Shown here: in pieces, positions 17,638 through 64,000 of the stretch
Layout: every line of letters starts with the position of its first letter
How positions within the stretch are numbered: position 1 is the first letter of the stretch
Origin: Planctomycetota bacterium
Lineage (GTDB): Bacteria > Planctomycetota > PLA2 > JAEUHO01
Assembly: GCA_029259775.1 (NCBI GenBank)
Contig: JAJDEN010000036.1
Location: 54,448 to 118,447 of the forward strand
Direction: 5' to 3'
DNA: 64,000 nt
The notes under the pieces: generated by a model
Database searches by the model: none
The model's input: the letters and a program-made list of their open reading frames with translations, nothing else
What the model was told of the DNA's origin: nothing
Position numbers and translations under genes: made by a program

Positions 17638-17716
17638 GGGCGGGGCTTGTCCCCGCCCGAGCGCGTCCCTTCTTTGGTCGGGACTTACCAGGTAGGGGCG
17701 ACCCTTGTGGTCGCCC
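17638..17716. repeat. REP-like palindromic repeat pair
   Basis: GGGCGGGG-CTTGT-CCCCGCCC (17638-17658) and GGGCGACC-CTTGT-GGTCGCCC (17696-17716), each preceded by GTAG. The same two units recur at 25473-25532, and the second type also at 63794-63814. Confidence 0.8.
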
Positions 17717-25416: not shown

Positions 25417-25561
25417 GGTCGGGGCTTGTCCCCGCCCGAACGCTTGCAGCCATGTCGGGACGTACCAGGTAGGGGCGGGGCTCGTCCCCGCCCTGCGACA
25501 ACCAACGCCGTGGGCGACCACAAGGGTCGCCCCTACCACGAGGCATCGCGGCGCGATGCCT
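25417..25561. repeat. REP-like palindromic repeat cluster
   Basis: Contains a GGGG-CTTGT-CCCC unit near 25422, GGGCGGGG-CTCGT-CCCCGCCC (25473-25493) and GGGCGACC-ACAAG-GGTCGCCC (25512-25532, inverted relative to the copy at 17696). It fills the gap between the convergent lipoprotein gene and pyrG. Confidence 0.8.
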
Positions 25562-59321: not shown

Positions 59322-59756
59322 ATGCGCCTGCTCGTGACCCTGGCCGTCTCCATCGCCCTCGCCTGGGGTGTATGGACGCTCCTCGGGACGGATGACGAGC
59401 CCGAGGCCACCATGCCGGACATCCCCACGGAGCCCCCGCCGGCGACGCCGACGGCCAACGGCACGGTCCGCTACGGCATCCCGACCACGGTGACGCTCGT
59501 CATGCTGGTGAAGACCGAGGGCGGCAACGTGCCGCAGAAGACGCGCGCCGGCTACCGCGCGGGTGGGGACGATCGCCTGCGCACCGTCGATCGCGACGGC
59601 AAGATCATGTTCACGGACGTCCCGACCGGGCCCGTCACGCTCCTGGTGCGCGCCCCCGGCTACGAGGATATCGAGCAGAAGCGCTACCTGACGGGCGGGG
59701 TTCGCGCCGACGCGGTGCTGACCCTCAAGCCGCGACAGGCATCCAAAAAGCCCTGA
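59322..59756 (+). CDS. Small anchored protein with carboxypeptidase-regulatory-like domain
   Basis: 144 aa. A hydrophobic N-terminus (M-R-L-L-V-T-L-A-V-S-I-A-L-A-W-G-V-W) and a Pro/Thr-rich linker are followed by a transthyretin-like beta-sandwich (I-M-F-T-D-V-P-T-G-P-V-T-L-L-V-R-A-P-G-Y), the pattern of CarboxypepD_reg-like domains. Likely periplasmic. Confidence 0.72.
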   Translation: MRLLVTLAVSIALAWGVWTLLGTDDEPEATMPDIPTEPPPATPTANGTVRYGIPTTVTLVMLVKTEGGNVPQKTRAGYRAGGDDRLRTVDRDGKIMFTDVPTGPVTLLVRAPGYEDIEQKRYLTGGVRADAVLTLKPRQASKKP

Positions 59757-59841
59757 TCCGGTGTAACGGATAGGGTTTCCGGGGATGCGCCGCGCGCCAT
59801 ACGGGGCCACAATGGCCGCGCATCACGCCATGGAGCCGCCC

Positions 59842-61311
59842 ATGCCCCGTCCTCCCGCCACCCTCGCGCTCCTCGCCGCGGTCCTCCTCGCCGCCGCCTG
59901 CGGCGGAGGCAGCGGAGGCTTCGTCTCCGAGACGAGCGGAGGCGACAACGACCCCGTGGACCGCGCGGCCAAGGCGATCGTCGCCGCCGACGTGAACGGC
60001 GACGGGATCAGCGACGTCCTCGAGATCCCCGTCCCGCCGACGGACGGCAGCGAGCCGGCCGAGCCGCGCTGCTGGCTCGGTGACGAGGGCGGCCTCGGCA
60101 CCGAGGCCAGCGACCGCGCGTACCCCACGGTCGACGCGATCCAGAGCGACCTCGGCCGTCTGTACCCGGACCGGATCCTCGATGACGAAGGCGCCCATCG
60201 CGCGGGCGGCGTGCCCTACGCCGTCATGCACATGGACGACGCGACGGCGGCCGAGGGCGATCCCGTCATCGACGCGCTGCGTCCCCAGAGCGGGCGTGTC
60301 GGTGCCCTGGTCGGGATCCGGGGCAGCGGCCTCGCCGCCCGCGGTGAGGCGACGACGGTCTCGTTCGACGACCTCGACGCCCGCGTCATCCTCGCGCTCC
60401 CGCAGTTCGTGCTCGTGATCGTGCCCGACGCCGCCCCCCTCGGGACCGTCGAGGTCGTCGTCACCCGCGGTACGGTCGGCAGCGCCGCGTCGCCCTTCGA
60501 GGTCGTGGCCGCGCCCACGCCGCATGTGGACAGCGTGCGGCCGGATCCGGTCGTGCCCGGCATCCTCGCGATCGTGCGCGGCGAGCACCTCGGTACACCC
60601 GCGGACGACGTGAGCGTCTCCTTCGGTGGCGTGGACGCCGAGCATGTGTTGGCCCTCGGCCGCAAGCTGTTCGCCGAGGTCCCCGCCGGTGCCATCAGCG
60701 GCCGGCTCATCGTCACGGTCAACGGCATCCCGAGCAACGGCGTGCAGGTGGAGGTCCGCGGCGAGCTCGACGCGCCGACGCTCACCAGCGTCACACCCGC
60801 GGCGGCATCCGCCGGCAGCCTGGTGCGACTCGCAGGCGCGGACCTGTTCGTGATCGGCCAGCGCCCGACCGTCAGCTTCGGCACGGCGCAGGCATCGATC
60901 TTCGGGCGCACGCGCGGCGGCATCCTCGCCATCGTGCCGACGGGTGCGAACGGCGACGTGACGGTCACCGTCGGTAGCAGGTCTTCGAACGGCGTCGCCT
61001 TCGAGCTGCTCGAGCGGCGCGACCCCGCCATCACCAAGATCACGCCAGACAGCGGCGCCCGAGGCGACCTGATCACGATCGAGGGCACGGACCTCTACGA
61101 CCTCCGCGGCCTGTTCCGCGAGGACGGCCCGTCGGGCCTGCCGCTCCGGCTGCCGCGCGTGACCTTCGGCGAGCGCCGGGCCTTCTTCGCCTTCCCTTCC
61201 GAGCGAGGTCTCGAGGTGATCGTGCCCTTCGGCGCCGGCACGGGCGTGGTGGACGTCGTCGTCGCGCTGGGCGACCTCCGGAGCAACGGCGTCCCCTTCA
61301 CGCTCCGCTAG
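59842..61311 (+). CDS. IPT/TIG-domain lipoprotein
   Basis: 489 aa from ATG 59842, with GGAG 6 nt upstream. Lipobox A-A-A-C near residue 20, then a Gly run. A short calcium-type D-V-N-G-D-G-I-S-D (about 50-58) precedes three to four IPT/TIG immunoglobulin-like repeats (V-D-S-V-R-P-D-P-V-V-P-G, L-T-S-V-T-P-A-A-A-S-A-G, I-T-K-I-T-P-D-S-G-A-R-G). A cell-surface binding or structural protein. Confidence 0.82.
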   Translation: MPRPPATLALLAAVLLAAACGGGSGGFVSETSGGDNDPVDRAAKAIVAADVNGDGISDVLEIPVPPTDGSEPAEPRCWLGDEGGLGTEASDRAYPTVDAIQSDLGRLYPDRILDDEGAHRAGGVPYAVMHMDDATAAEGDPVIDALRPQSGRVGALVGIRGSGLAARGEATTVSFDDLDARVILALPQFVLVIVPDAAPLGTVEVVVTRGTVGSAASPFEVVAAPTPHVDSVRPDPVVPGILAIVRGEHLGTPADDVSVSFGGVDAEHVLALGRKLFAEVPAGAISGRLIVTVNGIPSNGVQVEVRGELDAPTLTSVTPAAASAGSLVRLAGADLFVIGQRPTVSFGTAQASIFGRTRGGILAIVPTGANGDVTVTVGSRSSNGVAFELLERRDPAITKITPDSGARGDLITIEGTDLYDLRGLFREDGPSGLPLRLPRVTFGERRAFFAFPSERGLEVIVPFGAGTGVVDVVVALGDLRSNGVPFTLR

Positions 61312-61430
61312 GGAGGCCGTCACCCTCCGGTAGGCAATCTGGCCCCCTGAGGCGGCTTCCGGGCATTCTTCGCCCTCCCGGGGCCGTGCGCACACACTCG
61401 TCGATCCAGACCCCCTCGGAGGCTCGATCG

Positions 61431-63185
61431 ATGAAGTTCCCCCACCTCATGCTCCGCGCCATGCTCCCCATCGCGCTCGTCTTGTCCCTCGCGCTCGTCG
61501 GCTGCGGCGACAGCGGCACGAAGGGCAAGAGCGGCGACGGGATGCTGTCGATCGCGGCACCCAAGCAGGCCAAGGTGGACGAAGGCCTCGCCAGCCTGGT
61601 GCCCACGAACGCGGTCGCGATGGTCTACGTGAGCTCCGCGGCCAAGCTCGAGAGCAGCATCAAGACGCTCATGGGCAAGATCGACCCGGCCAGTGCGGAC
61701 GGCGTGGATCTGGGCGAGAAGATCGGCCCGATGCTCATGGGCCAGGACGCGTTGTGGGACAAGTCCAAGCCGATGGCCATCGCCATTGCGCTGCCTCCGG
61801 AAGGTGCGGACATCGGTGACGCCATGCAGGGCATGGCCATGATCTTCGGCATGAAGGACGCGGCCGCCGCCAAGGCGGCGATGGAGGTCCAGTTCAAGGA
61901 CGCTCCCGCGGATCAGAGGCCCGCGATCACGGTCGCCGGGAACTACCTCACGATCGCCGCGAGCGCCGGCGCGAAGTTGGGCGGCTCCACGCTCGCCACG
62001 ACGGCGCCTGAGGGTGACGTCGGCCTGCGCATCGACCTAGCGGCAATCGTCGCGCGCTACCGCACGGACATCGACGCCGGCATGGACGAGATGCAGCAGG
62101 GCATGGACAAGTCCATGGGCACGATGCCCCCGGGCGCGGCGCAGTTCGCCGACATGTTCAAGGGCATCGCCGGCAAGCTCCGTGACCTCGTCGACTCCGC
62201 GGAGACGCTCGACATCGGCATCTCGGTCGACGGCGACAACGTGGACGTGTCGATCGGCTTCACGGCCAAGGCGGGCAGCAAGCTCGATGACCAGGGCCAC
62301 GACCACAGCAGCCTCGCCGCCATGGCAGGCCTGCTGCCCGAGGGGATGCCGGTCAACCTGCTGATGTCGATGGACCTCGGCGCGCTCATGGACTGGATCA
62401 AGCCGCTCATGCAGGTCGGCATGGACGCCATGCCCGACGACCAGAAGGCCAAGTTCAAGGCCTACATGGACGAGACCTCCGAGATGACGAAGCTCCTGGG
62501 CCCCAACATCGCCATGGCGCTGGGCATCGGTGAGAACGGCATGGAGATGGTCGAGGTAATCGACTGCAAGGACACCGCCACCTACCTCCAGCGGGTCGAC
62601 AAGATGTTCGCAAGCGACATCTTGAAGGGCGTCACCGGCATCGCCGTCCAGAAGGCGGGCACAACGCAGGTCGCCGGCGTCGACGTGCACACCTACGGCA
62701 TCACGCTGGACATGGCGAAGCTGATGTCGGCGCAAGGACAGACGCCCGACCCGGACGCGAGCGCGATGGCCTCCAAGGCCATGACGGCCCTCTTCGGTGG
62801 CGAACAGATGAAATTCCACATGGCGGCCTTGGACAACAAGCTCCTGTTCACGATGGGCGCGCCGGCCGGCCTCGCCAAGGTGATCGAGGCCGCTCGCTCG
62901 GGCGCCAAGGCGCCTGCGGCCCTTCAGGGCGCGATCGATCGCGCTGGCGGTAAGCCGACCTTCGTCCTCCACGTGGATGCGCGCAAGATCGCGCGCCAGG
63001 TCGTGGGCTTGGTCAAGCGCATCATGGGGGACGACAAGGCGGGCGCGAAGCTGCCTGAGATCCCGGCCGGCGAGCCGGTCCCGATCCTGGTGTGGGGCAA
63101 GCACGACGGCCGTGTGTACGGTGGCGGCTTGCGCGTCGACGTCGGCGGCATCGCCGGCATGGCCAAGGCGATGGGCGGCAAGTAG
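61431..63185 (+). CDS. Large lipoprotein, DUF3352-like
   Basis: 584 aa from ATG 61431 with GGAGG upstream. Lipobox L-V-G-C near residue 25. The mature protein opens L-A-S-L-V-P-T-N-A-V-A-M-V-Y-V-S-S, as in DUF3352-type envelope proteins, and is rich in Met, Asp and Ala, with repeated segments such as M-D-E-M-Q-Q-G-M-D-K-S-M and M-D-L-G-A-L-M-D-W. High Met content could hint at metal handling or simply at its fold. Followed by 15-bp tandem repeats and the thioredoxin-like gene. Confidence 0.75.
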   Translation: MKFPHLMLRAMLPIALVLSLALVGCGDSGTKGKSGDGMLSIAAPKQAKVDEGLASLVPTNAVAMVYVSSAAKLESSIKTLMGKIDPASADGVDLGEKIGPMLMGQDALWDKSKPMAIAIALPPEGADIGDAMQGMAMIFGMKDAAAAKAAMEVQFKDAPADQRPAITVAGNYLTIAASAGAKLGGSTLATTAPEGDVGLRIDLAAIVARYRTDIDAGMDEMQQGMDKSMGTMPPGAAQFADMFKGIAGKLRDLVDSAETLDIGISVDGDNVDVSIGFTAKAGSKLDDQGHDHSSLAAMAGLLPEGMPVNLLMSMDLGALMDWIKPLMQVGMDAMPDDQKAKFKAYMDETSEMTKLLGPNIAMALGIGENGMEMVEVIDCKDTATYLQRVDKMFASDILKGVTGIAVQKAGTTQVAGVDVHTYGITLDMAKLMSAQGQTPDPDASAMASKAMTALFGGEQMKFHMAALDNKLLFTMGAPAGLAKVIEAARSGAKAPAALQGAIDRAGGKPTFVLHVDARKIARQVVGLVKRIMGDDKAGAKLPEIPAGEPVPILVWGKHDGRVYGGGLRVDVGGIAGMAKAMGGK

Positions 63186-63191
63186 CCGAAC

Positions 63192-63251
63192 GCAGCGTCT
63201 CTAGAGGCAGCGTCCCTAGAGGCCGCGTCCCTAGAGGCAGCGTCCCCAGCC
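63192..63251. repeat. 15-bp tandem repeat, four units
   Basis: Units GCAGCGTCTCTAGAG, GCAGCGTCCCTAGAG, GCCGCGTCCCTAGAG and GCAGCGTCCCCAGCC between the DUF3352-like gene and the candidate selenoprotein gene. They occupy almost the whole upstream region of that gene. Confidence 0.85.
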
Positions 63252-63264
63252 AGCTGGAGCCACG

Positions 63265-63762
63265 ATGCACCGCACCCTCCGTGTCCTGAGCCTCGTCCTG
63301 AGCGCGACGATCGCGCTCGGCCTGACCTCCGCCTGCTCCTCGGGTGTTGTTTCGGAGGGGACGCGCCCCCTACCGGGCGACACGGCGCTGGGCCGTACGA
63401 CGCCCGGCGGGCGAGGCGCGTACGCCTTCACGGCGGAAGACACGCCGTACACGAGCGTGCTGGCTGAGGCGCGTCGACGGAACCAGCCGGCGCTGTTGTT
63501 CTTCTGGACCTCGTGGTGAGGCTGGTGCCAGCGTCTGGACAGCCAGACGCTGCGTGATCCCCGTGTGGGATCCGAGCTCCAGCGCTTCGTGGCGGTGCGC
63601 TACGACGCGGATGGCGGCGAGGGCAAGGCGGTCGCGGAGCGCTTCGGCGTGCGCGGCTTCCCCGGGTTCGTCGTGGTGGACGGCAACGGCCGCAAGATCG
63701 ACGAGTTCGCCGGCTTCCGCGAGCCGAACCAGTTCCTGCGGCGGCTGCGGACGTACAGGTAG
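63265..63762 (+). CDS. Candidate selenoprotein: thioredoxin-fold lipoprotein with U-G-W-C redox site
   Basis: 165 aa if the in-frame TGA at 63517-63519 is read as selenocysteine (U85). N-terminus: signal peptide ending T-S-A-C (lipid Cys24). Redox site: F-F-W-T-S-W-U-G-W-C-Q-R-L-D, where relatives have W-C-G-W-C. Downstream D-P-R-V, then cis-Pro loop V-R-G-F-P-G-F-V-V-V-D and a normal terminal helix, ending at TAG 63760. The frame is open and protein-like on both sides of the TGA, with no frameshift. A perfect 10-bp hairpin begins 9 nt after the TGA. The alternative is a nonsense mutation of a Cys codon (TGC to TGA), which would leave an inactive 84-aa stub. The Sec machinery is not in this window. 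Confidence 0.8.
63529..63552 (+). promoter_or_regulatory. SECIS-like stem-loop downstream of the in-frame TGA
   Basis: CAGCGTCTGG (63529-63538), loop ACAG, CCAGACGCTG (63543-63552): ten uninterrupted pairs inside the coding region. The apical loop begins 20 nt after the TGA, within the usual range for bacterial SECIS elements. If the top G-C pair opens, the loop begins with G, as the bacterial consensus prefers. Confidence 0.65.
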
Positions 63763-63786
63763 GTCCGCCCGCTGCGCGGGCGGACC
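63762..63786. terminator. Stem-loop directly after the candidate selenoprotein stop
   Basis: GGTCCGCCCGC-TGC-GCGGGCGGACC, an 11-bp perfect stem starting at the last base of TAG. No T tract follows. Same arrangement as the hairpin after the lipid kinase gene at 17610. Confidence 0.5.
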
Positions 63787-64000
63787 GTGGTAGGGGCGAC
63801 CCGTGTGGTCGCCCGGCTCCCCAACCCACCCCACGATGCGCTTCGCGCCGACGCAGGCCCACCTACCTCACGTGCCCGTAGGGGTAGGGGCGACCCATGT
63901 TGGGGCCCCCGTTGCAGAACCCCCGTCGCCCACGAAGAAGGGGGGGGTCAAGGCCCCCCCCAACCCGGGTAATACCCAAGGGGGCGAACGCGCGCAGGCG
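63787..64000. repeat. REP-like repeats at the right edge
   Basis: One intact unit, GGGCGACC-CGTGT-GGTCGCCC (63794-63814), and a decayed unit beginning GTAGGGGCGACCC near 63885. Homopolymeric G and C runs fill the rest. No gene is seen to the end of the window. Confidence 0.65.

Follow-up and report, generated by a model that had tools for sequence, protein, structure and literature searches.

A 64,000-nucleotide stretch of the Planctomycetota contig JAJDEN010000036.1 (positions 54,448 to 118,447; hereafter the window) carries on its forward strand a gene, at 63265-63762, that we are highly confident makes a selenoprotein, with the in-frame TGA at codon 85 (63517-63519) read as selenocysteine (Sec). 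The basis of this reading is a conserved TGA, a conserved hairpin directly after it, a complete Sec machinery in the host genome, and homologues of the same design that have cysteine in place of the TGA. The predicted product is a 165-residue lipoprotein with one thioredoxin-like domain, and it is from these sequence comparisons that we infer Sec insertion at codon 85.

An in-frame TGA at the active site of a thioredoxin-like protein

The original prediction, made from the letters of the window, described a 165-codon frame broken by TGA alone at the first position of a redox motif, with D-P-R-V and cis-proline segments continuing past it. Translation agrees exactly: codon 85 is the sole in-frame TGA, the frame closes with TAG, the TGA leads the thioredoxin-type UGWC motif (TSW-U-GWC, with U for Sec), and both D98-P-R-V and a GFP segment containing P133 remain in frame on its 3' side. 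Cys88 (TGC, 63526-63528), the predicted resolving cysteine of UGWC, is invariant in the ortholog protein alignment, as is Pro133 (63661-63663), which, going by known thioredoxin structures, we take to be the cis-proline of the fold. The C-terminal two thirds of the protein match thioredoxin families above their cut-offs (PF13098, 47.4 bits versus 27; PF13899, 42 bits versus 27; PF00085, 36.4 bits versus 23.5), and the predicted fold is that of a thioredoxin, closest to DsbH and DsbD-gamma and extending over both halves, before and after the TGA. The first 24 codons (63265-63336) encode a predicted signal peptide ending in the lipobox LTSAC, at which Cys24 would be lipidated. Lipid anchoring had also been proposed originally, and a PROSITE-style lipobox pattern is present in all five complete orthologues.

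We then compared the gene with its relatives. The window belongs to genome G000, an assembly of 66 contigs estimated to be 92.5% complete, in which it lies on contig C30. Six of the 17 genomes of the order, the own genome counted, have an ortholog; of the five other carriers, G001, G002, G004 and G005 share its genus and G006 its family. TGA occupies the identical codon in six of six, which we regard as strong evidence for a selenoprotein, and the motif is UGWC in each. The complete orthologues are 50-60% identical to the window's protein, and none of the five contains any stop other than this TGA before a terminal TAG; the closest relatives thus keep the TGA with an intact frame rather than stopping or decaying after it. 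The half downstream of the TGA is under selection, with the nonsynonymous substitution rate (dN) below the synonymous rate (dS) in 10 of 10 ortholog pairs both before and after the TGA, although the ratios after it (0.31 to 0.97) are rough because the conserved hairpin depresses dS there.

These comparisons bear on what else the TGA could be. Were it a true stop, the gene would be a pseudogene or would encode an 84-residue lipoprotein, with the remainder decaying or separately started (from a GTG at 63565), and gene calling does cut the protein at this codon, leaving an 84-residue upstream piece of our protein (P0003) and, for the G006 ortholog, 86 residues from the downstream side (P0006). 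We nevertheless consider a true stop very improbable, given the TGA at the same codon in six of six genomes, the uninterrupted frames up to TAG in the complete orthologues, dN below dS past the TGA in every pair, and a predicted thioredoxin fold that covers both halves. The TGA might also be a sequencing or assembly error for TGC or TGT, and the window does stop 238 bases past the gene, where the contig runs out in a possibly noisy stretch that matches the terminus of contig C11 at only 86% identity. Such an error is very unlikely because five further assemblies have this TGA, and the 40 cysteine homologues that we scored lack such a hairpin; we rank it as the least probable of the alternatives.

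The host genome holds selA, selB, selD and tRNA-Sec, for which the original prediction had proposed a search. The own genome, to which the tRNA search was confined, has a tRNA-Sec with anticodon UCA (70.7 bits, cut-off 47), and its SelB (336.7 bits, cut-off 242), SelA (501.8 bits, cut-off 268) and SelD (349.7 bits, cut-off 125) score above their thresholds. The SelA and SelD genes adjoin on contig C57, and the SelD frame (L104, G000:C57:29656-30576) is likewise interrupted by a TGA, in a UxxK active site; UxxK is the motif listed for selenoprotein SelD in PMC13188914. Across the six ortholog-carrying genomes, SelA above cut-off, a TGA-bearing SelD and SelB were each found in five. G003, a genome of the same genus that is 92% complete, has no ortholog, no SelA match and no SelD above cut-off; it does hold a SelB fragment above cut-off. 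Selenium use in Planctomycetes is already known (PMC4807772).

Decoding of the TGA as some other amino acid, such as tryptophan, or by near-cognate read-through, would leave the frame open just as Sec does. TGA is, however, an ordinary stop in the window, where it ends 10 of 26 long non-overlapping open reading frames, and 40 of 40 scored homologues without the TGA have cysteine, not tryptophan, at this position; with a whole Sec system in the genome, we judge such decoding to be even less probable than a true stop.

A predicted bacterial SECIS hairpin

The TGA is followed by a hairpin at 63529-63552, a predicted bacterial selenocysteine insertion sequence (bSECIS) element on the forward strand. 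As had been noticed at the outset, it is a perfect stem of 10 base pairs (bp) with a loop of 4 nucleotides (nt): the arms at 63529-63538 and 63543-63552 form 10 Watson-Crick pairs around a loop at 63539-63542, and the stem starts 9 nt past the TGA. The bSECIS model given in PMC13188914 specifies a loop of 3-9 nt, a stem of 4-16 bp, a UGA-to-loop distance of 16-37 nt and a minimum free energy (MFE) of at most -7.5 kcal/mol, and our hairpin falls inside all of these ranges (4 nt, 10 bp, 19 nt and -21.1 kcal/mol, respectively).

The same hairpin follows the TGA in all five readable orthologues, G001 having a run of 10 Ns after the motif. Eight core pairs are never broken across the five, two outermost pairs are broken in some, and 90% of the 50 cells (five orthologues by 10 pairs) are paired. 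One core pair switches from G-C in the own genome and G004 to C-G in G002, G005 and G006, a change that at the codon level couples a silent leucine change (CTG/CTC) to a Gln/Glu replacement (CAG/GAG). Because G002 and G004 group together on the tree (support 98/93), this coupled change appears to have arisen at least twice.

We scored stems in 54 different sequences (14 with TGA, 40 with cysteine) taken from the loci of the best matches, which are part of all matches. When G-U pairs are counted, a stem of at least 8 pairs lies after the codon in 9 of 14 TGA homologues, including all five orthologues, versus 0 of 40 cysteine homologues, and with Watson-Crick pairs only the contrast is 6 of 14 versus 0 of 40. 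Fisher's test on the contrast between TGA and cysteine sequences gives p=4e-7, which overstates the case because the scored sequences are related. A bSECIS-like rule with stems of at least 4 pairs was passed by 14 of 14 TGA sequences, but it tells little alone because 26 of 40 cysteine sequences pass too; with stems of at least 7 pairs, it was passed by 10 of 14 TGA versus 4 of 40 cysteine sequences.

Whether such a hairpin could be a product of chance depends on the comparison. The original prediction held that a random nonsense mutation would be unlikely both to hit this codon and to have such a hairpin after it. When the peptide was fixed and its codons were redrawn, only 83 of 20000 draws gave a perfect 10-bp stem, and 209 of 5000 matched the energy of the fold. 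In a scan of codon-phased 42-nt stretches, none of 1968 contained a 10-bp perfect stem (the redraws and the scan both used three genes of the window). Plain shuffling gave no such signal: the hairpin region is GC-rich, and shuffling of the whole 59-nt fold yielded an unexceptional z of -1.04, with 23 of 200 shuffles folding equally well or better.

That shuffling result is one of several observations that weigh against the selenocysteine reading. The covariation comes from one pair, and its score, reached by 44 of 500 shuffles, is not decisive. The model in PMC13188914 also asks that one of the two leading loop nucleotides be G, mostly as G[G/U], and the loop of our MFE structure is ACAG, with no G in either position; only if the closing G-C pair were opened would G come first, in a GACAGC loop that starts with GA rather than G[G/U], and the predicted loop of SelD in the own genome likewise starts with GA. 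One ortholog pair has a dN/dS of 0.97 after the TGA, and contamination of the own assembly is estimated at 4.45%. Among the ortholog carriers, G005 has a SelA that is cut short where its contig ends and scores just under cut-off, and no SelD above cut-off, while G004 has no SelB above cut-off; both genomes are incomplete.

Cysteine counterparts and probable exchange within the phylum

At codon 85, where the original prediction had proposed comparing TGA with TGC or TGT, six of six orthologues have TGA, and every one of the 40 scored homologues that lack it has cysteine. Three database proteins (P0004, P0005 and P0007) share this lipoprotein design; they have 183-186 residues and a CGWC motif and are 45-51% identical to the window's protein over 67-69% of its length; these are known as protein sequences, and the hairpin contrast comes from other loci. 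One such locus is L031 of G009, a lipoprotein-like protein that has cysteine at this position and no such stem.

We built a tree from 46 domains, 14 with U and 32 with C, whose bootstrap had yet to stabilise. It unites the five complete orthologues in a single clade (98/87) and places them with weak support beside L031 (88/76) and P0004, P0005 and P0007 (93/44). The U label needs six changes on this tree, at least three of which are forced by well-supported branches. TGA stands at the same position also in L002 of the own genome and in L035, L038, L048, L052, L086, L087, L094 and L101. The latter eight are thioredoxin-like proteins from other genomes of the phylum, with UGPC, UGYC, UGWC and USWC motifs, and five of them (L035, L052, L086, L087 and L094) have no 8-pair stem near the TGA. 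L002 (G000:C61:20015-20344) is thioredoxin-like with a long C-terminal extension, and its TGA, in a UGPC motif, is followed by a 9-pair stem that includes G-U; it is likely to be another selenoprotein of the own genome.

The tree and the scattered TGA forms support repeated exchange of cysteine and Sec at this position in the phylum, a kind of exchange that PMC1794560 already describes for bacteria generally. We tentatively suggest, without leaning toward the idea, that exported thioredoxin-like proteins of Planctomycetota may be a hot spot of such exchange, with several independent events, mostly accompanied by a hairpin that the cysteine relatives lack. If so, the envelope disulfide chemistry of Planctomycetota would have been shifted repeatedly onto selenium.

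Relation to known families, possible function and gene surroundings

The original prediction called the gene a candidate new selenoprotein. Its selenoprotein part is strongly supported; a new kind is too strong a claim because PF13098 UxxC proteins ('thiol:disulfide interchange protein') are already listed as predicted selenoproteins in PMC13188914 and PMC9312934, and three PF13098-type UxxC sequences are counted in a table of PMC1794560. Selenoprotein families are named by domain and motif in PMC9312934, and because of this naming our gene, with the same Pfam domain above cut-off, the same UxxC and Sec at the first position, falls in an already listed kind. It differs from those listed in that it is predicted to be a lipoprotein and comes from a clade of Planctomycetota, and the likeness drawn here to the listed kind, represented by WP_011366075.1, is one of domain and motif. 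What is new is the orthologous group, its likely lipid anchor, its host clade and the signs of repeated exchange in the phylum.

No NCBIfam model matches the protein above its own cut-off. The top match is to TsoB (NF045694, a rhodanese/DsbD-fusion-like selenoprotein), where the C-terminal part of the profile (464-570 of 572) is aligned at 48.1 bits, far under the 805-bit cut-off, with the remaining TsoB profile unmatched. The DsbD profile NF001419 (44.3 of 330 bits) is likewise far under its cut-off, and DsbH (30.7 of 190 bits) and the thioredoxin model TIGR01068 (29 of 96.8 bits) also remain under theirs. DsbH has a cysteine. Unlike the C-terminal (gamma) domain of DsbD, our protein lacks the DsbD membrane domain, as judged from Pfam matches, is encoded by a separate gene, and has TGA replacing the first cysteine codon. 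Another protein of the own genome, from an 818-residue open frame, combines a DsbD membrane domain with a cysteine-type thioredoxin match.

The protein alignment search scored 7994 candidates sharing most words, and the best 120 of 168 matches were listed. Among the matches listed in the protein searches, the TGA-type orthologues appear just as cut pieces, P0003, P0006 and P0002, and full-length TGA-type entries may exist beyond them. P0002, the one database piece that the full protein found as a query, has 153 residues, comes from a contig of 690 bases and is 86% identical to our protein in its last part. The 84-residue N-terminal piece, used as a database query, returned P0003, the window's own copy, alone. 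We found the protein undescribed in the open-access literature searched, a search whose scope left supplements, including the selenoprotein table of PMC4807772, outside. The group adds to the listed selenoproteins from a clade that has been little studied and in which ordinary gene calling splits the protein in two.

As a mechanism, we propose that SelB with Sec-tRNA-Sec would bind the hairpin after the TGA, and that the product would be thioredoxin-like, anchored by lipid and equipped with Sec-Gly-Trp-Cys at its active site. The chain would be exported and lipidated at Cys24, after which Sec85 could attack envelope proteins at their disulfides or other oxidised thiols, Cys88 could resolve the mixed selenenylsulfide, and a DsbD-type protein of the own genome may re-reduce the pair. 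This last part tells against extending our confidence to the whole scheme: an envelope role fed by DsbD is much less sure than the Sec reading, to which alone the high confidence stated above applies. A reactive selenol would then sit on an envelope protein that is likely to be lipid-anchored, beside conserved putative exported proteins. Comparison with the cysteine counterparts of the same design would be a natural way to ask what advantage Sec has over cysteine and how coding sequence comes to contain a SECIS hairpin.

The gene neighbourhood is partly conserved. Upstream, all on the forward strand, lie a 599-residue putative lipoprotein without a Pfam family (61386-63185), which adjoins the selenoprotein gene in three of five relatives; a protein with IPT/TIG domains (59785-61311), nearby in three of five; and a small putative exported protein (59322-59756), nearby in four of five. 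The complete order, in which the small putative exported protein is followed by the TIG-domain protein, the 599-residue putative lipoprotein and then the selenoprotein, is found in G006; G004 has it without the TIG-domain protein, G005 and G001 have it without the 599-residue lipoprotein, and G002 has the 599-residue lipoprotein alone of these neighbours within the stretch read.

Most of the intergenic gap between the lipoprotein and selenoprotein genes is filled by a 15-bp tandem repeat, GCAGCGTCCCTAGAG, present in 3.7 copies at 63192-63246. A dispersed palindromic repeat, GTAGGGGCGACCCNTGTGGTCGCCC, occurs at 17692-17716, 25512-25536, 63790-63814 and 63884-63908, where 0 copies would be expected in the window; three of these are exact and the remaining one has 3 mismatches. 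The end of the window is also the end of the contig, and 63689-64000 overlaps the end of contig C11 (L006/L105) at 86% identity, with a different stop codon region there; because their ends overlap at this identity, C30 and C11 are probably consecutive pieces whose ends are noisy, or else diverged copies.
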